This document shows, piece after piece, positions 927 through 59,810 of a DNA stretch of 64,000 nt. Every line of letters begins with the position of its first letter. Position 1 is the first letter of the stretch. Under the pieces are notes generated by a model. It worked only from the letters and a program-made list of their open reading frames with translations, did no database searches and was not told the DNA's origin. A program made the position numbers and the translations under genes. The DNA is from an uncultured Bacteroidales bacterium (GTDB taxonomy: Bacteria > Bacteroidota > Bacteroidia > Bacteroidales > Bacteroidaceae). The DNA is taken from contig CACZAN010000017.1 in the NCBI GenBank assembly GCA_902779165.1, forward strand, positions 1-64,000, written 5' to 3'.

Positions 927-2111
927 CTAGTAAATGAAGCCGAAGAGCCAGAGGGGAATGCGAGAGCCGTGGCCTACCTCGGTGTCATCTACACCAAGGA
1001 AGCTGTTGGGCTCGTCGGCAATCTGCTCGAAGGTCTTGCGACGGCCTCCTATCTCGAAGAGGTATTTGTCATCGACATAGAAATCACCTTTCTTGGGGTA
1101 CTTGACCTCGTTGCTTACGATGAGCTGGCTATAGAAGAAGGTTTCGCGCTCGTTGCCTTTCTCGACACGGGGACAGAGGGCATGCATGAGGTTGGGATTG
1201 CCCAGGAAGATCTTGTCGGGCTTGTTGAGGTACTTGTAGTTCTTGGGCTTGGAGGTGAGAAGGCCCAGAATCTGTGCTTTGTCGAGGGCATAGAGCATAC
1301 GGAGCCCCAGCTCGTTGTTGGTGGCAAGGGCCGCCCAAAGGTCGGACATCGTGGGCTGGAAGGGTACACGCTCGGAGATGATCATAAGGAGGCGCTTGAC
1401 CTTCTGGATGGTCTCGAAGGTGACGTTCTCTACGGCAGGCAGGTCATCGTCGATGACGACCCGAACGGTCTCGCGAAGGCGAGGGAGGAAGTCTTCGACA
1501 GACTCCTTATAGAAGGGGTAATAGCCGTGCTGGAGATAGGCCTCGAAGAGAGGGGCAACCTTTATCTGACGGGTTATCTGCATGGCATAACGCACATGGT
1601 TCTGGAGGATGTCATCGAAAGTGACGGCATCGAAGGTGAGGACTCCCTCGTAGTCAAGGAACTCACGGAAGGACATGCCGTAGAGCGTGTATGTGGTCTG
1701 GCGACGTGAAAGGTCGACCTTGGCATTGTCCATGATGAGGAGCGATGAGCTGGTGTAGACAATGCTCATGTCGGGATAGTTGTCGTAGATGTTCTTGAGG
1801 TTGACGGACCACTGGTCGTAGCGATGAACTTCGTCGAGGTAAAGGCGCATGATGCCGTGTTGGTAGGCCCAATCGACAAGGTCCATAAGGGGATGGGTGG
1901 CAAACCAGAGGTCGTCAAGAGAGGCATAGAGAGTCTGGTCGACGTCCTGATAGTTTTCGAGGATGTGCTGTAGGAGCATCGTGGTTTTTCCCACGCCACG
2001 AGAACCTTTGATGCCTATGAAGCGGGCATCCCAGTTGATTTGGGAATAGAGATAGCGCTTGAATCGCAGGTCAATCTTGGAGAGCTTGCGATGATAGGTA
2101 TCGATAATCAC
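927..2111 (-). CDS. AAA-family ATPase with DUF4143-like C-terminus
   Basis: A roughly 395-residue ATPase of the group often annotated as 'AAA domain / DUF4143' in Bacteroidetes. A Walker A motif GSRGVGKTT sits near residue 40 and a Walker B LYLDEVHR near 95. The C-terminal half includes a nuclease-like stretch (FEIGGRRKTFEQI), as in DUF4143 proteins. Many genomes carry numerous copies and their role is unsettled; links to toxin-antitoxin or mobile DNA have been proposed. The longest frame begins with TTG at 2126. I chose the GTG at 2111, which gives an N-terminus V/M-IIDTYHRKLSKI like that of relatives. The gene stands alone, convergent to the broken genes on its left, in a degraded region. 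This fits an accessory gene. Confidence 0.75.
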   Translation of the reverse strand: MIIDTYHRKLSKIDLRFKRYLYSQINWDARFIGIKGSRGVGKTTMLLQHILENYQDVDQTLYASLDDLWFATHPLMDLVDWAYQHGIMRLYLDEVHRYDQWSVNLKNIYDNYPDMSIVYTSSSLLIMDNAKVDLSRRQTTYTLYGMSFREFLDYEGVLTFDAVTFDDILQNHVRYAMQITRQIKVAPLFEAYLQHGYYPFYKESVEDFLPRLRETVRVVIDDDLPAVENVTFETIQKVKRLLMIISERVPFQPTMSDLWAALATNNELGLRMLYALDKAQILGLLTSKPKNYKYLNKPDKIFLGNPNLMHALCPRVEKGNERETFFYSQLIVSNEVKYPKKGDFYVDDKYLFEIGGRRKTFEQIADEPNSFLGVDDTEVGHGSRIPLWLFGFIY

Positions 2112-2142
2112 GCCGCAAAAATACAATTTATATTTTAAACTA

Positions 2143-2150
2143 CAAAGATA
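2143..2150 (-). promoter_or_regulatory. -7 box for the AAA ATPase
   Basis: Read on the minus strand this is TATCTTTG, a full match to the Bacteroidetes TAnnTTTG box. The predicted transcript start lies about 10-30 bases ahead of the candidate start codons. A second match (TATTTTTG, 2116-2123) overlaps the beginning of the frame. If that one is used, the downstream GTG is the only possible start. Confidence 0.45.
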
Positions 2151-2430
2151 ATGTGAATTTTTGTGGTTGAAAATGTAAAAACGCGACGATTTTTATGGTT
2201 TAAGAGGTGAAATAGTAATCTAAGGCCTTGATAAAAAAGGAGGGGAGTGGGGAAGGAGACCTTCTTATGATGTTCATTCTTTGTAAATCTTCAACACCAA
2301 TGAAATGAAATCGCATCTTTGTGCGTTAGTAATAGAAGAAACAAATCAGAAACGAACAATGAAAAATGCGATTAAGAGAGAGCCATGCAAGCTTGTTTGC
2401 GGATGGCCGAACGTGAGCATTTTATTTAAC

Positions 2431-2481
2431 ATGCAAACCATCATCACCGCACTACTCGCCCTCGTTGCAATGGCGGGATAA
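2431..2481 (+). pseudogene. Signal-peptide stub of a lost secreted protein
   Basis: ATG is followed by codons for MQTIITALLALVAMAG and a TAA stop. This is a complete Bacteroidetes signal peptide core that ends just before the expected cleavage site. The frame past the stop (DFQAKMPTM) continues briefly in the style of a mature N-terminus and then stops again. It may be the start of a thioredoxin-like gene such as the one broken at the window's left edge, but that link is only a guess. Confidence 0.4.
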
Positions 2482-2528
2482 GATTTTCAGGCTAAAATGC
2501 CCACAATGGTAAAATAAATGAAGAATTA

Positions 2529-2560
2529 TTTGGTTATCTCATCAAATATATATACTTTTG
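2529..2560 (+). promoter_or_regulatory. Bacteroidetes promoter, TTTG-N20-TACTTTTG
   Basis: A -33 element TTTG (2529-2532) and a -7 element TACTTTTG (2553-2560) are separated by 20 bases, which fits the consensus. Transcription would begin near 2567 and enter the broken frame at 2589. Confidence 0.5.
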
Positions 2561-2588
2561 TGAACTAAAAATACAAATAATTTAGAAT

Positions 2589-2741
2589 ATGAGTTCACAA
2601 ACTAGCCTTTTTCAAATGATTCTTGAGAGTCCGAGGACGGTGTTTACGGTGCAGTCTCTGATGATGCAGACGGGCTGCAATCCTAAATATCTTCGTCAAC
2701 GACACAACCTCTTTGAAAGAGCTGGCCGAGGGGCTCTATAA
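2589..2741 (+). pseudogene. Truncated winged-helix / AbiEi-like regulator remnant
   Basis: A 50-codon frame starting MSSQTSLFQMILESPRTVFT and passing through VQSLMMQTG. This resembles the N-terminal helix-turn-helix of AbiEi-type antitoxins or related regulators in Bacteroidetes, though I cannot confirm the family without a search. The frame ends early. In the next frame the sequence LKELAEGLYNRRHVLNQIG continues as if part of another protein, which suggests a frameshift or deletion. A good promoter remains upstream. Confidence 0.35.
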
Positions 2742-2925
2742 TAGAAGACACGTTTTGAACCAAATCGGCAACAACGCCACCTTTTGGGCTATCATGGACT
2801 CATTGCCATGCTGCGGCGCGAGGGTTACACGGTTGAGGCGGTGAAGTAAGCCTTGCGGAAAGAAGTTAAATCATAAAGTATCTTAAAAAAGGGAACAAAT
2901 GCCGCGTTGTTTCCTCAATATTCAG

Positions 2926-2933
2926 TATCTTTG
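2926..2933 (+). promoter_or_regulatory. -7 box for the DUF1573-meaB pair
   Basis: TATCTTTG matches TAnnTTTG and lies 45 bases before the ATG of the DUF1573 gene. A TTGT at 2907-2910 is a weak -33 candidate with short spacing. Confidence 0.45.
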
Positions 2934-2978
2934 AACCCAAATTTTAGTGATTCTCTAAGGAGAAGGGTTTTTAGATAA

Positions 2979-4070
2979 ATGTTTATGTCATATAATAAGG
3001 ATATAAGGCTGTTGATGTGTCTGCTGTTGGCGGCGTGGGGCCTGTGTGCCTCGGCCCAGCCGGAGTTGACCGTGGTTTCTGATGTGGTGAATGTGGGTGA
3101 TGTGATGTTTCAGCAGCCGAAGAGCATCAGTTTCGAGATTCGCAACAGCGGGTCGCAGCCGCTGCAGCTCACAGAGGTACATGCTTCGTGTGGTTGCACT
3201 CATGTAATCTGGCCTCGGGAGCCGATAGCCCCTGGTGAGTCGGCGAAGATCGAGGCGCTGTATGATGCCATGTTGTTAGGTACGTTCCAGAAGGAGCTGG
3301 AGGTGTACTCAAACGCTTCGGCGGAGCCTACGTACCTAACATTGCAAGGACGCGTGGTCTCTACGATGGAAGAGACGGACTACACGGATTTTCCCATAGA
3401 CTTGGGCAACGTGCGGCTGAGCTCAAATGTGGTGGAGTTCGACGATGTGAGTCGCGGCGAGCAGCCTGTGGTGCAGCTGCAGGTGGTGAATATGTCGCGC
3501 TCGAGCTATAAGCCGGAGATCATGCACTTGCCGCCATACCTCACGGCACGCTATCTGCCGGAGAAACTGGCCGGCGGGCGTGTGGGGCGCATCCTGCTGA
3601 CGTTGAATACGGAGGAGTTGAAGAACTACGGGCTCACTGAGACAACTGTCTATCTGGCCCGTAAGGTGGGCGACCGCGTGAGCGCTGAGAATGAGATTAG
3701 TGTCTCGGCCGTGTTGCTGCCTGCCTTTGCGCACCTCTCGGCAGGGGATATGGCTGCAGGACCTCGCATGGTGCTGAGTGCCGACAGTCTGGATTTTGGC
3801 GCTTTGGGTTCAAAGAAGAAAGTGACGCAGACCATCAAGGTCACCAACGAGGGGCAGCGTCCGCTGACCATCTCCAACGTACAGGTTTATGGCAGCGCGC
3901 TGAATGTCAGCCTGTCGAGCCGCATCATCCAACCCGGCAAGAGTGCCAAGCTGAAGGTAACGGTACTGAAGGAATATCTGCAGAAGACGAAGAGCCGTCC
4001 GCGTGTGCTCATCATTGCCGACGACCCCACTCGTCCGAAAGCTGTCATCAACATAAAAGCTAAACCATAA
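2979..4070 (+). CDS. DUF1573 domain secreted protein
   Basis: 363 residues. An N-terminal signal peptide (LLMCLLLAAWGLCASAQ) is followed by two Ig-like ASH/DUF1573 modules, near residues 45-115 (FEIRNSGSQPLQLTEVHASC, then CGCTHVIWP) and 285-350 (IKVTNEGQRPLTISNVQV). The CGCT stretch in the first module is the family signature. These proteins are exported in Bacteroidetes; their exact function is not known. A second ATG two codons downstream (2985) is an equally possible start. The stop overlaps the ATG of meaB by one base (TAATG), so the two are probably co-transcribed and translationally coupled. Confidence 0.85.
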   Translation: MFMSYNKDIRLLMCLLLAAWGLCASAQPELTVVSDVVNVGDVMFQQPKSISFEIRNSGSQPLQLTEVHASCGCTHVIWPREPIAPGESAKIEALYDAMLLGTFQKELEVYSNASAEPTYLTLQGRVVSTMEETDYTDFPIDLGNVRLSSNVVEFDDVSRGEQPVVQLQVVNMSRSSYKPEIMHLPPYLTARYLPEKLAGGRVGRILLTLNTEELKNYGLTETTVYLARKVGDRVSAENEISVSAVLLPAFAHLSAGDMAAGPRMVLSADSLDFGALGSKKKVTQTIKVTNEGQRPLTISNVQVYGSALNVSLSSRIIQPGKSAKLKVTVLKEYLQKTKSRPRVLIIADDPTRPKAVINIKAKP

Positions 4071-14079: not shown

Positions 14080-14127
14080 TTTCAATGTTTCAATGTTTCA
14101 ATCTTTCAATATTTCAACGTTTCAACC
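14080..14127. repeat. 8-bp tandem repeat array, consensus TTTCAAnn
   Basis: Six consecutive octamers: TTTCAATG, TTTCAATG, TTTCAATC, TTTCAATA, TTTCAACG, TTTCAACC. On the minus strand the unit is nnTTGAAA. The array covers the end of the lptG-type gene and supplies its stop codon (14114-14116) and its last three residues. Similar arrays lie at 16131 and 19856. Confidence 0.8.
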
Positions 14128-16130: not shown

Positions 16131-16194
16131 CGTCAATATTTCAATATCTCAATGTTTCAATATTTCAACTTTTCAACTTTTCAACATTTCAACT
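16131..16194. repeat. 8-bp tandem repeat array, consensus TTTCAAnn
   Basis: Eight consecutive octamers from CGTCAATA through TTTCAATA, TCTCAATG, TTTCAATA, TTTCAACT (twice), TTTCAACA and TTTCAACT. The array extends into the bglX gene, encodes its last residues (VEMLKS) and provides its TGA stop at 16173-16175. Confidence 0.8.
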
Positions 16195-18647
16195 TTTGAG
16201 AAATAATGGTTCCGCAGTGGCTTCTGAACGGGCTCGCCAGTGAGAGTGACGGTCTTCTGAAGCCTGATGTCTGCAGAGGAGCTGCCGACCTTGATGAGGT
16301 ACTGACCCGGCAGTACGTTCCATTGGCGCTGGCCCTCGTTGCTGTAGAATCCGAACTGCTCGGTATAGAGCTTCACCTGAATGGTCTTGCTCTCACCCGG
16401 CTGCAGCGTCACACGGGCAAAGCCTTGTAGCTGAATGGGACGGATGGGCTGGTCGGCACTCGTGGGCGAGAGGTAGATTTGTGCCACCTCGTCTGCAGTC
16501 ACTTCGCCCGTGTTCTTCACTTCGAAGGAGAGGCTGATACTTTCGTCCTTCGTTGCTGCCTCGCCAGTGACTTTCAAATTGCTGTATTCGAAGGTGGTAT
16601 AGCTCAGGCCGTAACCGAAAGGCCAGGCGATTCGACGATTAGGGGATTTCGCCATTTGGCGATTGGAGGATTGAACGATTTCGCCATCGCACGATCCGTG
16701 ATCTGAGAGTAGGGGATAGTTGTAGCAGATGGGCTCATAGATTTCGGTGTTGGGGTAGCTGACAGACAGCTTTGCCGACGGTGACACCTTGCCATAGAGA
16801 ATATCGGCCACCGCATTGCCGCCTTCCTCGCCGGGATACCAAGCCTGGATGACAGCAGCACACTTTTCTGCGAGCCCTGAGATCACCTGAGCCCTGCCGC
16901 CAAACATCACCAGCACCACGGGCTTACCTGTCTTGATCAACTCCTCTACATACTGCTCCTGTTTGCCCGGCAGGCGCAGACTCTGGCGGTCGCGGTTCTC
17001 GCCACAGAGCATCACATTCTCACCGACGGCAGCGATGATGACATCTGCCTGCCGGGCCATAGCGAGGGCTTCTGCCTTGTCGGCTTTCTCGCCGGCATCC
17101 ACTCTGCGATGCAGGATTGCATATTCCCAAGCACGCTCGTCGCCCAGCTCGCCGTATTTCGTTTCGATTTCTTCTGTCCAGTCGCAACCGCGGGAGTACA
17201 TCACGTTTACCCCCTCTGGCTTGCGCCCGTTCATACCTTCTAAGAGCTTGACGATGTGCGGATTGTCGCTGTCTGCTATGTTCTCCACCTTCTTCCAGAA
17301 GTACGACATTGCGGGATAGGTGTAGTCGCCGCACATGGCCCAGATGGAGTTGGCATTAGGACCCGTCAGCAAGATGTTGAGAGAGGCGCGTTCGGAGCTT
17401 AGGTTGGAGAGCGGCAACACGCCATTGTTCTCCAGCAGCACCACCGACTGTACGGCGATATCGTATGCCGTCTGGTGCTCTTCTGGAGTATCGAGTTGGA
17501 TTTGTTCCTCTGTGCTGTAGAGGTAGGCGTCTTTGTCGAAGAGGCCGGCGCGGAACTTATGGCGCAGCACGTTCTTCACGGCGCGTTCCAGCGTTTCGGG
17601 TTTGACCAGCCCCTGGTCGATGGCCATCTGCAGGTACTGATAATTGGCGCCATGGGGGAAGTCTACATCGTTGCCGCCATTGATGGCCGCCGCGGCTTTC
17701 AGCACCTCCGGCGCAGCCGCTGGTTCGTCACCTTGCAGCGGTAGCTGGTTGATAGCGGTGTAATCGCTCACCACCATACCGTCGAAGCCCAGATAGCCGC
17801 GAAGGATATCCTGCAATATCTCGCTGTTAGCCACGCACTTGATGCCGTGAACCTCGTGGTAGCCCGGCATCACGCACTTGCTGCCAGCCAGACGGATCAT
17901 CGCTTCATGAGGGAGCAGTATCTCTTCCATCAGTTCCTTCTCCTCGGCGTCACCTCCTCCGCCGTAACCTAAATAATGTTTCGAGCAGGCACCCACACCC
18001 CGTTTCAGATCGCCCTGTTGCAAACCATTGACGAAAGCTACGCCCATAACTGCCGACAGATAGCCGTCCTCACCATACGATTCCTCCAGACGGTTGAACG
18101 AAGGCGTGCGACACACATCCACCATCGGCGACAACGCTAAGATTCCACCCATCTTGCGCAGGGCGGTACTCGTCTGGCGTGTCTTCAGTTCCGCCAGTTC
18201 CGGATTGAACGAACAAGCCTGTCCTATCTGCTGAGGATAGATGGTGGAGCCCAGGGTGTTTACTCCCGAGAGCACCTCTTCGTGCAGCAGGGCGGGTATG
18301 CCGTTCGGAGTGTTATGGATGAGCCAGTCCTGAATGGCCTTAGCACGGTTGCGCAATTCGTTCGGGTCGCGGGGCTGCTGCATGCAGAACTGCGAGAAGT
18401 GTCCGATGCCATAGGGAATCATCTCGCGACACCTGGCGGTATCCAGCTGTCCCTGCTTGTTGAACAGGGTGTCCATATACATACTCCTCAGCTGGGCGAT
18501 GCGCTCTTCCTGCGACATCTTCTGGTACAGTTCGTCTACTTGCTGCTCTATGTCAGTAACGGTGTTGCATCCAGTCATCAGCGCTACCAACCCTGCTATC
18601 AGCAGGCTGGCGCACCACAATCGTGCGAGAACGTTCTTTGGTCTCAT
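16173..18647 (-). CDS. GH3 beta-glucosidase-type lipoprotein
   Basis: 824 residues of glycoside hydrolase family 3 (BglX-like). It starts with a lipoprotein signal (lipobox LMTGC, Cys27) and so is probably anchored at the outer membrane or in the periplasm. Order: GH3 N-terminal barrel (about 40-390) with the nucleophile D295 in GMVVSDYTAIN, the GH3 C-terminal alpha/beta sandwich (about 400-680) ending in WPFGYGLSYTTF, and a fibronectin-III-like domain (about 700-800). Family members remove terminal beta-glucose or beta-xylose; the specificity here is not determined. Oddities: residues 654-675 are encoded by a perfectly phased 8-bp repeat (SSNRQMAK/SPNRRIAW), and the C-terminus is made by another 8-bp array. 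It is divergent from the GH43 gene. Confidence 0.9.
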   Translation of the reverse strand: MRPKNVLARLWCASLLIAGLVALMTGCNTVTDIEQQVDELYQKMSQEERIAQLRSMYMDTLFNKQGQLDTARCREMIPYGIGHFSQFCMQQPRDPNELRNRAKAIQDWLIHNTPNGIPALLHEEVLSGVNTLGSTIYPQQIGQACSFNPELAELKTRQTSTALRKMGGILALSPMVDVCRTPSFNRLEESYGEDGYLSAVMGVAFVNGLQQGDLKRGVGACSKHYLGYGGGGDAEEKELMEEILLPHEAMIRLAGSKCVMPGYHEVHGIKCVANSEILQDILRGYLGFDGMVVSDYTAINQLPLQGDEPAAAPEVLKAAAAINGGNDVDFPHGANYQYLQMAIDQGLVKPETLERAVKNVLRHKFRAGLFDKDAYLYSTEEQIQLDTPEEHQTAYDIAVQSVVLLENNGVLPLSNLSSERASLNILLTGPNANSIWAMCGDYTYPAMSYFWKKVENIADSDNPHIVKLLEGMNGRKPEGVNVMYSRGCDWTEEIETKYGELGDERAWEYAILHRRVDAGEKADKAEALAMARQADVIIAAVGENVMLCGENRDRQSLRLPGKQEQYVEELIKTGKPVVLVMFGGRAQVISGLAEKCAAVIQAWYPGEEGGNAVADILYGKVSPSAKLSVSYPNTEIYEPICYNYPLLSDHGSCDGEIVQSSNRQMAKSPNRRIAWPFGYGLSYTTFEYSNLKVTGEAATKDESISLSFEVKNTGEVTADEVAQIYLSPTSADQPIRPIQLQGFARVTLQPGESKTIQVKLYTEQFGFYSNEGQRQWNVLPGQYLIKVGSSSADIRLQKTVTLTGEPVQKPLRNHYFSKVEMLKS
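16625..16688. repeat. 8-bp repeat array inside the GH3 coding region
   Basis: Eight phased octamers with consensus nnnnGATT: AGGCGATT, CGACGATT, AGGGGATT, TCGCCATT, TGGCGATT, GGAGGATT, GAACGATT, TCGCCATC. Three octamers equal 24 bases, so the array is translated as an 8-residue period. It sits in a surface loop just before the conserved WPFGYGLSY motif, where an insertion is tolerated. Confidence 0.7.
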
Positions 18648-19872: not shown

Positions 19873-20026
19873 GACGTATCGGCTTCCGTAATAAGACGTA
19901 TCGGCTTCCGTAATAAGACGTATCGGCTTCCACGATAAGACGTAACGGCTTCCACGTATGGACGTAACAGGTTTTATGTATATACGTGTCAGGCTTTACG
20001 TATATACGTCTTGGCCGTTACGTATG
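19873..20026. repeat. 22-bp tandem repeat array, seven units
   Basis: Seven units of exactly 22 bases. Units 1-2 are identical and begin GACGTATCGGCTTCCGTAAT; unit 3 changes the end to CCACGATAA; units 4-7 diverge but keep ACGTA near the start and ACGTAT at the end. At the junction of units 6 and 7 the sequence ACGTATATACGT is a perfect 12-bp palindrome, and later units have ATACGT and ACGTAT arms around a variable centre. An eighth unit begins (GACGTGAG) and then breaks off inside the Nudix-like gene. There are no spacers, so this is not CRISPR. Confidence 0.85.
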
Positions 20027-55965: not shown

Positions 55966-58071
55966 CTACGTCAGCACGCGGTCGCCTCGCATACGTCCTA
56001 ACTGCGACTGCACATGCTTGATATCCTGATAGCGTTTCATCACTTCGATGGAACGCTCTTTGTCTGCCATCACCTCTGGAGAACTTATCAGTTCCATCAG
56101 TTTCCGCAGTTCGCGGTCGACAACCGCCAGCTTGTAATCTCCCATCAGATGGGGTATCAGCTCACCCAGGCGCTCTTCCTCCGGCTTGATGGGAATCCCC
56201 TTGTTGTGGATCTTGCTGAGGGTTTCCTTTTCGTGAGCCAACTCTGTGGCCAGCTCGGCGATGGTTAGGTCGGGGTGGTTCTCGAAGTAGCGGTCACAGC
56301 GGAAGCCCTCTTCCCAATAATGTTCCAGTGCCTCGTCCAGGATGCGCTGATGCAGGGGGCTTTGCAGCTTCAGTTCATCGTCCATGAGCGAGAGGTTGAT
56401 ATACTCCACTACGGTTATGGGGCGCTCGGTGCCGTCTTGGTCCTTGATGTTGCACATCACTTTCTCTCCATGGCGGATAATCATCTGAATCAGCAGCTGC
56501 TCGGTCTGCAGGAACAGCTCATCGTCCTTCTGTCGCTTGGTCTGCAGGTTGATGGCGGAGGGCGTGGCGGGCTTGGATTCTGGGATGATTCCTGCCAGCA
56601 CCGCTTCCTCTTCAGCCGTCAGGACTGGTTCCGTGTTCTCAGTCTGAGGGGGGACATCCGTTTGAGCTACATTGTTATAGCCGCCGGTAGAGGGCCGGGA
56701 GGTTTCTGAGGTTGCAGACTGTCCCTGCTGGCGAGCGGCTTCGCGCTGACGTTCCTCGCGCAACTGCTTTCGCACTTTACCTACGGCTGTGGTGATGATG
56801 CGCTCTTCAACCGAGAGCATCTGTGATGTCTCCTTGATATAGAAGGTGCGCGTGATTTCGTCGGGAATGACTGCCAGGCTCTGCACGATATTACCAGTGA
56901 GTCGCGAGAGTTTGATGGGGTCGCCCTGTGCTTCTTCCAGAAGGAGATTGGTCTTGAATTGGATGAAGTCCACCTGATGTTCTGCCAAGTACTTCTGGTA
57001 GTCTTCTGCCGTGTGCTTGCGTGCAAAGCTGTCGGGGTCGTCTCCATCGGGCAGCAGCAGCAGTTTGACCGTCATCCCTTCGGCGAGCAACATATCTATA
57101 CCTCGCTGTGAGGCTTTGATGCCTGCTGCATCGCCGTCGTAGATGACCACGATGTTCTCTGTGAAGCGGTGGATGGCACGTATCTGTTCGTGGGTCAGGG
57201 CCGTACCGCTGCTGGCAACGACGTTTTCCACCCCCTGCTGATGCATGGCCATCACGTCCGTGTAGCCTTCAACGAGGTAGCAGAGGTCCTGTTGCACGAT
57301 GGCTTTCTTGGCGAAGAACAGTCCATAGAGCTCGCGCTTCTTGGAGTAGATGATGCTTTCGGGCGAGTTCTGGTACTTCACCTGCACGCCTTTCGTGCGA
57401 CTGTCGAGCACGCGGCCTCCGAAGCCCACGACTTTGCCGGATATTGTGTGGATGGGAAAGATCACTCGGTTGCGAAATCGGTCGTAAGTCTTCCCCTGTT
57501 CATTGCGGATACAAAGTCCTGTCTTCAACAGGAACTCTTCGTTGTATCCCGCTTCCTTGCCGGCTTTCCACTGGGCGTCGTACTTGTCGGGACAGAAGCC
57601 GAGCTGGAATTTCTTTATCAAGTCGTCGCGGAAGCCACGCTGGCGGAAGTAGGCGAGACCTATTGCGCGCCCGTCCACCGTATCATTCATCTGCTGCTGG
57701 AACCATTCGTTGGCCCATTCGTTGACGATGAACAGGCTCTCGCGTTCGCTCTGTTCTGCCTTTTCTTCATCGCTGAGCTCACGTTCCTTGATTTCGATGT
57801 GGTATTTCTTGGCTAAGTAGCGGAGGGCATCGGGATAGCTGAGTTGCTCGTGCTTCATGATGAAATGCACGGGTGTTCCTCCCTCTCCGCAGGCAAAGCA
57901 CTTGCAGATGTTCTTCGACGGCGACACCATGAACGAAGGCGTGCGGTCGTCGTGGAATGGACATAAGCCCTTCAGGTTCGCGCCGGCTCTTCGCAGGGTC
58001 ACGAAGTCTGATACGACATCCACGATGTTCGCTGCGTCCAAGATTCTATCGACAGTTTGTCGGTCAATCAT
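55966..58071 (-). CDS. dnaG: DNA primase
   Basis: 701 residues. The CHC2 zinc finger has C37, H40, C58 and C61 (LCPFHDDRTPSF; CKCFACGEGG). The N-terminal catalytic part follows with FGGRVLDSRTKGVQVKYQNS. The TOPRIM metal motifs are the glutamate in CYLVEGYTDVMAMHQQG and the DxD in VVIYDGDAAGIKASQRG. The C-terminal helicase-binding region comes after a glutamine/serine-rich linker. It makes RNA primers for replication. The stop lies 6 bases from the stop of the GH76 gene. The start is followed upstream by the palindromic repeat array. Confidence 0.95.
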   Translation of the reverse strand: MIDRQTVDRILDAANIVDVVSDFVTLRRAGANLKGLCPFHDDRTPSFMVSPSKNICKCFACGEGGTPVHFIMKHEQLSYPDALRYLAKKYHIEIKERELSDEEKAEQSERESLFIVNEWANEWFQQQMNDTVDGRAIGLAYFRQRGFRDDLIKKFQLGFCPDKYDAQWKAGKEAGYNEEFLLKTGLCIRNEQGKTYDRFRNRVIFPIHTISGKVVGFGGRVLDSRTKGVQVKYQNSPESIIYSKKRELYGLFFAKKAIVQQDLCYLVEGYTDVMAMHQQGVENVVASSGTALTHEQIRAIHRFTENIVVIYDGDAAGIKASQRGIDMLLAEGMTVKLLLLPDGDDPDSFARKHTAEDYQKYLAEHQVDFIQFKTNLLLEEAQGDPIKLSRLTGNIVQSLAVIPDEITRTFYIKETSQMLSVEERIITTAVGKVRKQLREERQREAARQQGQSATSETSRPSTGGYNNVAQTDVPPQTENTEPVLTAEEEAVLAGIIPESKPATPSAINLQTKRQKDDELFLQTEQLLIQMIIRHGEKVMCNIKDQDGTERPITVVEYINLSLMDDELKLQSPLHQRILDEALEHYWEEGFRCDRYFENHPDLTIAELATELAHEKETLSKIHNKGIPIKPEEERLGELIPHLMGDYKLAVVDRELRKLMELISSPEVMADKERSIEVMKRYQDIKHVQSQLGRMRGDRVLT

Positions 58072-58111
58072 CTTCTATCGCTTTGCTCGAAAATTTCTAT
58101 ACGTTTAGGCT

Positions 58112-58129
58112 TGTCTCACTAGTGAGACA
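58112..58129. repeat. 18-bp perfect palindrome flanking the 22-bp array
   Basis: TGTCTCACTAGTGAGACA is its own reverse complement. A degenerate copy, TCTCACTACTGATACA, lies on the other side of the array (58301-58316), so the array is bracketed by related palindromes. It also lies just upstream of dnaG and could affect dnaG expression. Confidence 0.75.
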
Positions 58130-58132
58130 CTT

Positions 58133-58298
58133 GAGTTCCACTGCTGGAATTCCCGAGTTCCACTGCTGGAATTCTCGAGTTCCACTGCTGGAATTCTTGA
58201 GTTCCACTGCTGGAATTCTCGAGTTCCACTGCTGGAATTCTCGAGTTCCACTTCGAGTTCCACTGCTGGAATTCTTGAGTTCCACTGCTGGAATTCGT
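58133..58298. repeat. 22-bp tandem array of hairpin units
   Basis: Seven full 22-bp units plus one 12-base partial unit (58243-58254). Each unit is GAGTTCCACTGCTGGAATTC plus two variable bases (CC, TC, TT or GT). GAGTTCCA and TGGAATTC are near-complementary arms around CTGC, so each unit can form its own hairpin with an 8-bp stem containing one mismatch. Units are almost identical, which suggests recent expansion or selection. Every full unit contains GAATTC. It lies between the dnaG start and the GH105 stop and has no coding role that I can see. Confidence 0.9.
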
Positions 58299-58322
58299 TT
58301 TTCTCACTACTGATACATTGGT

Positions 58323-59810
58323 TTACTTCACGGCCTCTCCCTTGCCATCTTCGGTCAAGTAGAAGAGTGGGGCAGGATTCGTCTGCTCCTGTTTGTAATA
58401 GTGGAGGCCGCTATCATTAGTACGGGGATACCACTCACACAGTAGGTTAATCATCTCGGCAGCAGCCCAAATGACGGGACCGTAGCCGTGTGCGGCAGCA
58501 GAGCTGACGGGGCGGTAGTAGTAGAAAGCGGGGTCGAAGGCCATTCCCGTTCCTACACAGGTGCCGGCGACCTTACCTTCTTCCGTGATCTTGGTGCTGA
58601 TGGCGTGCCAGGCGAGCTGTGCCACGCCGCCGTAGGTGATACCCTCAATCCAACCCTTCCGAATGGCGTGGGCGATGGAGTAGCAGTAGATGGCGGTGGC
58701 GCTGGTTTCGAGGTAGCTGTCCGTACGGTCGAGGAGTTGGTGCCAGAAGCCCTCGCTGGACTGCAAGGCACAGAGGCCGGCGATGTGCTCGCGTAATTGA
58801 TTAAGGATAAAGGGGCGGTCGATGTGGTCTTCGGGCAGCATGTCCAGCAGTTCCACGGTGGTCAGCAAGGCCCATCCGTTGGCTCGTGCCCAGTGATATG
58901 TTGGCTGCTGCGCCAGCCCTTCGACATATCCGTGGCGGTAGATTTTCTTCTCAGGAACCCACATCCGCTTCACGAAGTTCTTGTACATCGTGGCTGCCTC
59001 GTCAAAGTACTTCGGGTCATTGAAATAGATGCCGGCGTAGGCAATGGTCGGGATGCCCATATACATATCATCGAGCCAGACGGTGTTGTGCTGCGGACGG
59101 TGGCGCGCGAAGAGTCCGTCCTCCAGACGGTACTGCCCGTGCTCCACGAATTGGAAGTAATTGTTGATGAGCGTGTCCTCTGTCACATCAAAGTGAACAT
59201 AATCGCCTTCTACCGTAGTCTTATGCTCACGGGTTGATTCATTCCGCTTCATCCATTTCATCATTGCCGTACACATCGTGCCGCAATCATCCAGCGCACG
59301 GGGGTGGATGACCTGTTCCATCTGTGCGTCGGCCACCTCGGGCTTGTCGGCATCACGCTCTTTGAAAAGATAATAAGCCGTGGTCAGCAGGGTCAGATTA
59401 TTAAATACATACTCCTCGTAGCGCATATCTCCTGTGGCATCCTTGGCAGCGAGCAAGGCCTGATAGGTGATACCCCATTCGTAGGAACCGATGCGGAAAG
59501 CACCGCGATGCAGGCTGATTCCCTCTTCCAGCGGATAGAGCCGCTTGTTGTCTGGAACTTCATTGCCGTCGGCATCAACAAACCCCTTAGGCCGTTCGCT
59601 GTCGATGTAGGCGAACACGCGCTCGAGGTCAGCTTTCACCTCATCGGCAGTCAGTTCGCCATAGGGCACCTTGTAGTCGGGCTTCAGCAGGTGGAGTGGG
59701 GTTGTGGAGTCGTTGATTTCCTCCGTTGTCTGAGGCGCATTCTTGCAGGCAGTGGCTGCAAATGCTACCAATACGGCACTCAGGAGATGCACAAAAGAGA
59801 ACTTTTTCAT
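58323..59810 (-). CDS. GH105 unsaturated rhamnogalacturonyl hydrolase, lipoprotein
   Basis: 495 residues. A lipoprotein signal (LLSAVLVAFAATAC, Cys22) is followed by the (alpha/alpha)6 barrel of family GH105/GH88: HPRALDDCGTMCTAMMKWMK with the catalytic aspartate region, TVWLDDMYMGIPTIAYAG, YHWARANGWALLTTVELLDM and the late GTGMAFDPAFYYYRPV. It removes the unsaturated galacturonyl group left on rhamnogalacturonan fragments by PL lyases. It is divergent from the PL26-like gene and shares a promoter region with it. Confidence 0.9.
   Translation of the reverse strand: MKKFSFVHLLSAVLVAFAATACKNAPQTTEEINDSTTPLHLLKPDYKVPYGELTADEVKADLERVFAYIDSERPKGFVDADGNEVPDNKRLYPLEEGISLHRGAFRIGSYEWGITYQALLAAKDATGDMRYEEYVFNNLTLLTTAYYLFKERDADKPEVADAQMEQVIHPRALDDCGTMCTAMMKWMKRNESTREHKTTVEGDYVHFDVTEDTLINNYFQFVEHGQYRLEDGLFARHRPQHNTVWLDDMYMGIPTIAYAGIYFNDPKYFDEAATMYKNFVKRMWVPEKKIYRHGYVEGLAQQPTYHWARANGWALLTTVELLDMLPEDHIDRPFILNQLREHIAGLCALQSSEGFWHQLLDRTDSYLETSATAIYCYSIAHAIRKGWIEGITYGGVAQLAWHAISTKITEEGKVAGTCVGTGMAFDPAFYYYRPVSSAAAHGYGPVIWAAAEMINLLCEWYPRTNDSGLHYYKQEQTNPAPLFYLTEDGKGEAVK

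Follow-up and report, generated by a model that had tools for sequence, protein, structure and literature searches.

A 22-bp array of inverted half-sites beside dnaG is one locus of a genome-wide, satellite-like repeat class recurring across a Bacteroidales genus

Upstream of dnaG in an uncultured Bacteroidales bacterium stands a short tandem array of symmetric units, which raises the question of whether it serves that gene or belongs to something larger. An initial annotation of the window (the whole stretch of DNA analyzed, 64,000 nucleotides) had described seven near-identical 22-bp units at this place, and direct reading of positions 58112-58317 bore this out. Seven exact GAGTTCCACTGCTGGAATTC units (20 bp) start at 58133, 58155, 58177, 58199, 58221, 58255 and 58277, and the TRF score of the array (226-237) is far above chance. 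The features of the locus, together with the other array of this period in the window, are as follows.

19873-20025, no strand: the other 22-bp-period array of the window, in which GACGTATCGGCTTCCGTAATAA units pass gradually into ACGTATATACGT-like ones
55966-58071, minus strand: dnaG, DNA primase (Pfam DNAG_N, Zn_ribbon_DnaG, Toprim_2)
58072-58322, no strand: intergenic gap (251 bp) from the GH88 gene to dnaG, holding the array
58112-58129, no strand: perfect 18-bp palindrome TGTCTCACTAGTGAGACA, which belongs to a second unit family and keeps the 22-bp register
58133-58152, plus strand: TTCCA unit 1
58155-58174, plus strand: TTCCA unit 2
58177-58196, plus strand: TTCCA unit 3
58199-58218, plus strand: TTCCA unit 4
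58221-58240, plus strand: TTCCA unit 5
58243-58252, plus strand: truncated eighth unit GAGTTCCACT, a deletion within the array being probable
58255-58274, plus strand: TTCCA unit 6
58277-58296, plus strand: TTCCA unit 7
58300-58317, no strand: degenerate TCTCAC-type palindrome TTTCTCACTACTGATACA, read directly, its centre 22 bp from that of unit 7
58323-59810, minus strand: glycosyl hydrolase family 88 (GH88) gene (Pfam PF07470, 1.2e-72)

The truncated unit accounts for the single irregular spacing (34) in the window array. At its core each unit reads TTCCA-N4-TGGAA, and farther out a G/T mismatch keeps it from being a perfect hairpin, which corrects the earlier description of the units as hairpins. 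A perfect 18-bp palindrome on one side of the array and a degenerate copy of it on the other had also been described, and both are present. Their centres lie exactly 22 bp from that of the nearest unit (58120.5 to 58142.5 and 58286.5 to 58308.5), so that both palindromes are in the array's register. Elsewhere in the window, repeats of 8-bp period (TTTCAATG and TCAATATT) are found at 14080-14125 and 16133-16197.

The unit is dispersed over the whole genome to which the window belongs (G000; 3.59 Mb in 75 contigs, 86% complete). A search for the 20-mer with at most 3 mismatches gave 49 forward and 51 reverse matches, and the reversed 20-mer, used as a control at the same threshold, gave zero. 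The tandem pattern TTCCA-N4-TGGAA-N8-TTCCA-N4-TGGAA matched 81 times. We read 32 places, the window and 31 others: the strict core is present in 31 and absent from L044, at least two strict units stand at 27 (window included), and the four places with one strict unit may be due to chance. Strict units total 113, of which 93 are distinct, with 1-7 per array. Tandem TTCCA units occur in three settings: between genes, within a MITE-like element and within genes.

Reading of the flanks by eye placed 13 of 31 own loci (for example L039, L049, L056, L061, L064 and L065) within a common element of ~540-565 bp, the inverted ends of which are TTGCAGTAGATTT repeats (25 end matches). The other 18 loci, the window array included, are without this element. 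In two other genomes all TTCCA matches (one in G035, at L023; three, forming one array, in G083, at L024) lie, again as judged by eye, in apparently the same element. Near such ends on contig C25, positions 1367-3478 and 4080-6121 of L361 hold what we take to be genes for VirE-, RhuM- and KilA-N-type proteins, possibly part of a larger mobile element. Long open frames contain tandem arrays at L062 and L067, and one strict unit at L054, L055 and L063. L067 encodes a PD40 beta-propeller protein, and its array is translated in frame within a linker. Alignment of nine sequences revealed that this insert is absent from the orthologs in G089 and G106, that a similar insert stands at this site in the ortholog of G019 (locus L227, with a TTCCA array at 603-666), and that G044 and the other four aligned orthologs have different or shorter sequence there.

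The letters of the core proved to be specific to species. Exact tandem core patterns were searched in 139 genomes: TTCCA tandem pairs were found in seven (G000 81, G019 54, G097 4, G028 3, G083 3, G110 2, G035 1), TACCA-N4-TGGTA pairs in four (G083 17, G089 8, G057 5, G108 5) and TATCA-N4-TGATA pairs in six (G099 53, G129 9, G030 4, G107 3, G052 1, G108 1), and 123 genomes had none of the three patterns. The TACCA and TATCA patterns scored zero each in the own genome, and the reversed-pattern controls gave matches in two genomes alone, both in the search for TTCCA (5 and 1). Core letters are nearly uniform within a genome and differ between species, where both arms change together, and the 22-bp pitch is kept. 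This joint change of the arms would be expected equally from symmetry of the DNA and from pairing in an RNA. A two-letter code, T-W-Y-CA, was also considered and failed as stated, because its predicted fourth member, TTTCA-N4-TGAAA, is nearly absent (one pair in one of the 139 genomes). G055 instead has TTTCA-N5-TGAAA at 21 bp, and near a Y1 transposase of the same genome (L148, 630-715) TTCCA-N5-TGGAA and TTTCA-N5-TGAAA units are mixed at a 21-bp period.

In the order and phylum collections TTCCA matched the own genome alone (1 of 149 and 1 of 118), and a wider scan of a contig collection gave 73 matching stretches, 65 bearing Bacteroidales names and 8 from elsewhere. TTCCA arrays are also present in isolates (Porphyromonas levii, P. 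uenonis, P. endodontalis and P. crevioricanis; Prevotella brunnea) and so are not solely an artefact of metagenome-assembled genomes (MAGs). Outside Bacteroidales, the Verrucomicrobia MAG Tb.RUG.75 (L126, 5911) has TTTCCAACGTTGGAAA three times in tandem with a 22-bp spacing. Two alphaproteobacterial records with similar surroundings (L102, 6021; L114, 586) each hold three phased, operator-like palindromes at 22 bp, TGATTTCCATATATGGAAATCA and two variants.

Period 22 is the commonest tandem period between 10 and 45 bp in 20 sampled congeners and is rare in samples from the wider order and phylum. For the congeners TRF was run on contig C5, with a maximum of 20 kb per genome (276 kb in all), and periods of 10 to 45 were counted. 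Among the congeners period 22 made up 25 of 86 rows and every other period at most 5; 11 of the 25 come from a single stretch (L283), and 10 of the 20 stretches have any. The order sample (20 genomes, 269 kb; 19 of other families and G197 of the same family) gave 1 row of 24 and the phylum sample (20 genomes, 317 kb) 2 of 18, although several of these stretches were very short, the smallest having 387 bases. Period 22 made up 20 of 198 rows in a 464-kb sample of the own genome, fewer than periods 8 (30) and 15 (23). Certain related arrays have periods of 21 or 23 bp.

Symmetry accompanies this period. Period-22 consensus sequences had a mean palindromicity of 5.48 against 4.76 in shuffles, and 29 of 56 reached 6 or more of 8 pairs; consensus sequences of other periods had 4.74 against 4.35. 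This set includes chosen stretches, and a separate TRF set of relatives includes ones picked for arrays or dnaG. Identical tandem dyads showed a peak of spacing at 22 in congeners (12 of 29, six of the 12 in stretches picked for arrays or dnaG). In the own genome 9 of 11 dyads at 22 are the window array itself, and the order and phylum samples had none at this spacing. An unbiased palindrome-period scan found period 22 about twofold up in the own 464 kb (20 and 24 clusters, compared with means of 10.5 and 11.1) and not clearly raised in the small samples of relatives. TRF is the more telling of the two approaches.

Constraint within the unit was analyzed in 28 register chains at 27 own loci, the window counting twice since the truncated unit splits it. 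At all 53 interior unit positions the ten core bases were unchanged; columns 3 and 20 were likewise fixed, and the ten remaining columns had minor-base fractions of 0.06-0.53. The 53 positions are not independent events, because copies within MITEs are related. A set mixing G019 with all other contig-collection matches, in which 11 of 53 interior positions were not exact, was left out of this result. Parsed from consensus strings, the unit consists of ~7-bp arms (here AnTTCCA and its complement) and 4-bp gaps of freer sequence, and half-sites therefore alternate in direction about every 11 bp, that is, one helical turn. Symmetric conserved half-sites on a helical pitch, as in a protein-bound operator or partition array, are thus a property of this repeat. 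No compensatory pairing at the variable columns was found within the own genome, and an apparent negative pairing at the unit centre probably arises because units occur in both orientations. Exact cores made up 110 of 119 for TTCCA, 5 of 29 for ACGTATATACGT and 1 of 6 for GTCTCAC (10, 12 and 14 scored bases), the TTCCA loci having come from a near-exact search that is biased toward TTCCA exactness. We read these differences as younger and older layers.

Different unit families are able to stand together in one register. Palindromes pairing at 6 or more of 8 positions were placed by phase around 18 non-MITE TTCCA loci (four of them with one strict unit; ~234 positions per phase). Phase 0 of 22 held 13, and the other 21 phases 30 in sum (mean 1.4, with a maximum of 4, at phase 11); around 13 MITE loci the same test gave two palindromes. 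Three of the 13 are TTCCA-like. The other ten, clustered in 5 of the 18 loci (the window, L038, L040, L051 and L055), are GTCTCAC-N2-GTGAGAC, ACGTATATACGT-like sequences and a few others. With up to 2 mismatches, TGTCTCACTAGTGAGACA occurs at 13 places in the own genome, two of which adjoin TTCCA arrays. The GTCTCAC family forms 22-bp rows itself, three copies on C35 and three on C20, and on both contigs ACGTATATACGT-like units adjoin these rows in the same register. The flanking palindromes had been taken for borders of the array; their 13 places and the in-register test identify them instead as another unit family. The initial annotation had itself named a unit found once, or flanks with no conserved borders, as evidence against its reading: the unit is far from unique, but conserved borders are indeed absent.

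The window array is one locus of a genome-wide, satellite-like repeat class that recurs across the genus. As to its cause, we tentatively prefer a reading in which a putative dimeric DNA-binding protein recognises inverted half-sites arranged as a satellite-like lattice, with ~11 bp from one to the next. Two reasons weigh for it: a single pitch and register shared by unrelated letters is best accounted for by a physical ruler, and the bases that stay fixed make up symmetric half-sites with free gaps between them. The putative protein, dimeric and sequence-specific, would occupy half-sites along one face of the helix and contact its neighbours, so that only symmetric, in-register units would be retained. 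Arrays would lengthen or shorten via slippage or unequal recombination, and the MITE-like element would in part carry them to new sites. A drift in specificity, or takeover by a related protein, could then place a new unit family beside the old one, which would decay in place. The binding, the protein and any cellular role we infer from the arrangement of the repeats. Several observations speak against such a lattice. Two tandem arrays lie within long open frames, as would be expected of selfish spread more than of binding sites under selection; in-register non-TTCCA palindromes are limited to 5 of 18 loci; many period-22 arrays have no clear consensus palindrome, and some related arrays keep a period of 21 or 23 bp. 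Further points against it are the concentration of period-22 rows in one congener stretch, the greater number of period-8 and period-15 rows in the own genome, the near absence of the predicted TTTCA core and the lack of compensatory pairing at the variable columns. The array had been thought to be a protein-binding or recombination array rather than random satellite DNA. Its fixed period and its symmetric, conserved half-sites support a protein-read array, and it is not random, but it is satellite-like and is not bracketed by borders. A more far-reaching version, which we consider doubtful, is that of a bacterial satellite-DNA system, in which a chromosome-wide 11-bp half-site lattice would serve a rapidly evolving DNA-binding protein, each species would have its own code, and successive codes would be layered in an unbroken 22-bp register.

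Ranking second after the protein-read lattice, although unlikely, is that the units are REP-like selfish palindromes: a 22-nt single-strand hairpin would be mobile, or amplify, via an enzyme other than the known RAYT, and insertion beside an existing unit would give tandem growth. Such an origin fits uniform species-specific families, dispersal, insertions within genes and symmetric change of the arms, and as in REP/RAYT systems the TTCCA unit is a dispersed, multi-copy short palindrome (27 tandem loci, 113 strict units). According to the part of the source available, CGTC-type REPs are similar in stem (8-9 bp), loop (4-5 nt) and intragenic copies, and like the TTCCA units they are short, dispersed, species-specific palindromes with some copies inside genes; they are mostly head-to-head dimers, clusters being rare (PMC3733652). 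TTCCA arrays differ in their fixed 22-bp tandem register, which across unrelated families is not a described REP property in the literature covered, itself available in part. They also differ in the tag, since neither GTAG nor CGTC is present in the eight commonest own spacers (for example CTCGCGAG and TTCGTGAG).

The transposases give a mixed answer. A Y1_Tnp profile search of 139 genomes matched 62 at E<=0.001, 53 of them over the cut-off. The own RAYT (L143; G000:C5:81182-81523), a RAYT-like Y1 transposase that is stop-free inside, is flanked by inverted GAGGTAGCCAGC-type repeats holding GTAG, similar to a repeat in the flank of L045. A palindrome scan and TRF were empty within 1.5 kb of it, yielding neither TTCCA units nor phased arrays nor TRF rows. 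Mobilisation by this RAYT is disfavoured, as it carries other repeats and no TTCCA unit. The array-rich G099 (53 tandem pairs, 100% completeness) has a partial Y1 match barely above the cut-off (24.2 bits, positions 40-87 of 121), and G028, with 3 TTCCA pairs, has none. In favour of a REP-like origin, 21-22 bp arrays lie within 3 kb at four of eight Y1 loci examined (L144, L147, L148 and L149), about twice the sampled background; seven loci were scanned by TRF, and the own L143 by palindrome scan and TRF, both empty.

Other repeat systems are more distant. A CRISPR does not fit, judging from the gaps of 4 and 8 bp, which recur and leave too little room for spacers. Iterons and partition-site arrays are tandem protein sites at whole-helical-turn spacing and are single loci of replicons, whereas arrays of the TTCCA type are scattered along the chromosome and have letters specific to each species. 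Eukaryotic satellite DNA is likewise tandem, with rapid turnover, a fixed unit length and older layers next to younger ones; the arrays described here differ from it in being short (1-7 strict units), dispersed and bacterial.

It is rather improbable that the arrays are neutral minisatellites, in which slippage and gene conversion would homogenise 22-bp repeats with no trans-acting factor and hairpins would promote slippage or template-switch repair. The truncated unit in the window, the variable number of units and the local homogeneity are all consistent with this, but neutrality leaves unexplained the single pitch over different families and species, the common register of mixed families and the 53 of 53 fixed interior core positions beside variable neighbours.

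Very improbable is that the array is nothing but a MITE-borne minisatellite, cargo of a transposable element in the manner of BrickBuilt. The 13 of 31 own loci in the common element, and apparently the matches of G035 and G083, agree with it; the 18 loci without the element, among them the window, do not, and nor do the in-register palindromes of other families, found beside non-MITE loci and not beside MITE loci. As far as the available parts of the sources go, BrickBuilt of Porphyromonas gingivalis is the nearest Bacteroidales case found in print: a MITE minisatellite at 19 places in ATCC 33277, with 23-nt units, reported always intergenic, and ends like those of IS5-family elements (PMC4596501). 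Both systems belong to Bacteroidales and have short tandem repeats in MITE-like elements, variable copy number and predicted stem-loops. TTCCA arrays differ in unit (22 bp against 23 nt, compared by length), in their inverted half-sites, in the 18 of 31 loci outside the MITE-like element, in the two tandem arrays within open frames and in the several unit families sharing one register. A BrickBuilt-like layout (leader, tail and terminal inverted repeats) is present at 13 of the 31 own loci and absent at the window array. The accessible text also mentions 22-nt direct repeats in P. gingivalis W83, their places not being given (PMC4596501). Two further sources, PMC6006769 and PMC5771137, were likewise available in part. 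In the literature searched, which included few subscription papers, we found no report of 22-bp in-register palindromic arrays.

There remains the gene beside which the window array stands. We sought dnaG in 61 genomes, found it in 55 and read the best 30 loci. GH88 adjoins the start of dnaG in the own genome and eight others. The dnaG gap of three of these eight syntenic congeners holds a 22-bp array of other units (TACCAGCGGTGGTACAAATCTA in G089, TATCA-N4-TGATA in G129 and GTATATAC in G106), and that of the other five has no 22-bp array. An effect of the array on dnaG expression, which had been suggested, is not supported, because TTCCA arrays stand at 26 other places, two of them in long open frames, and because the gap is empty of arrays in five of the eight congeners and holds other units in three. 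A scan for sigma-70-type promoters at the dnaG array was empty, which says little in Bacteroidota. A structured RNA, also suggested earlier, or a transcription terminator acting on the dnaG mRNA is scarcely credible: the transcribed strand does fold (z -5.5) and the array has one terminator-like site (plus strand), but this site and the stronger fold (z -7.7) are both opposite to dnaG transcription, Rfam gave no matches to the array, TTCCA arrays are found in many unrelated contexts, and sense-strand mismatches at 11 loci, with gene directions taken from ORF picks, are more often A.C than G.U (44 against 19, 14 of the 44 A.C being from the window; 30 against 19 without it). The array at dnaG is most likely a by-product of array turnover rather than a regulator of dnaG, and this cautions against taking such arrays for local regulatory elements of the adjacent gene.

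Short palindromic repeats are already known in bacteria. Here a unit length of 22 bp is kept despite the turnover of letters, and unrelated families stand in register, which suggests a physical ruler, either a lattice of protein on the DNA or an enzyme of fixed reach. If a protein reads the arrays, they would amount to a so far unrecognised system of Bacteroidales, either selfish or chromosome-organising, and the species codes would, if this is true, make the coevolution of a protein and its DNA sites directly testable.
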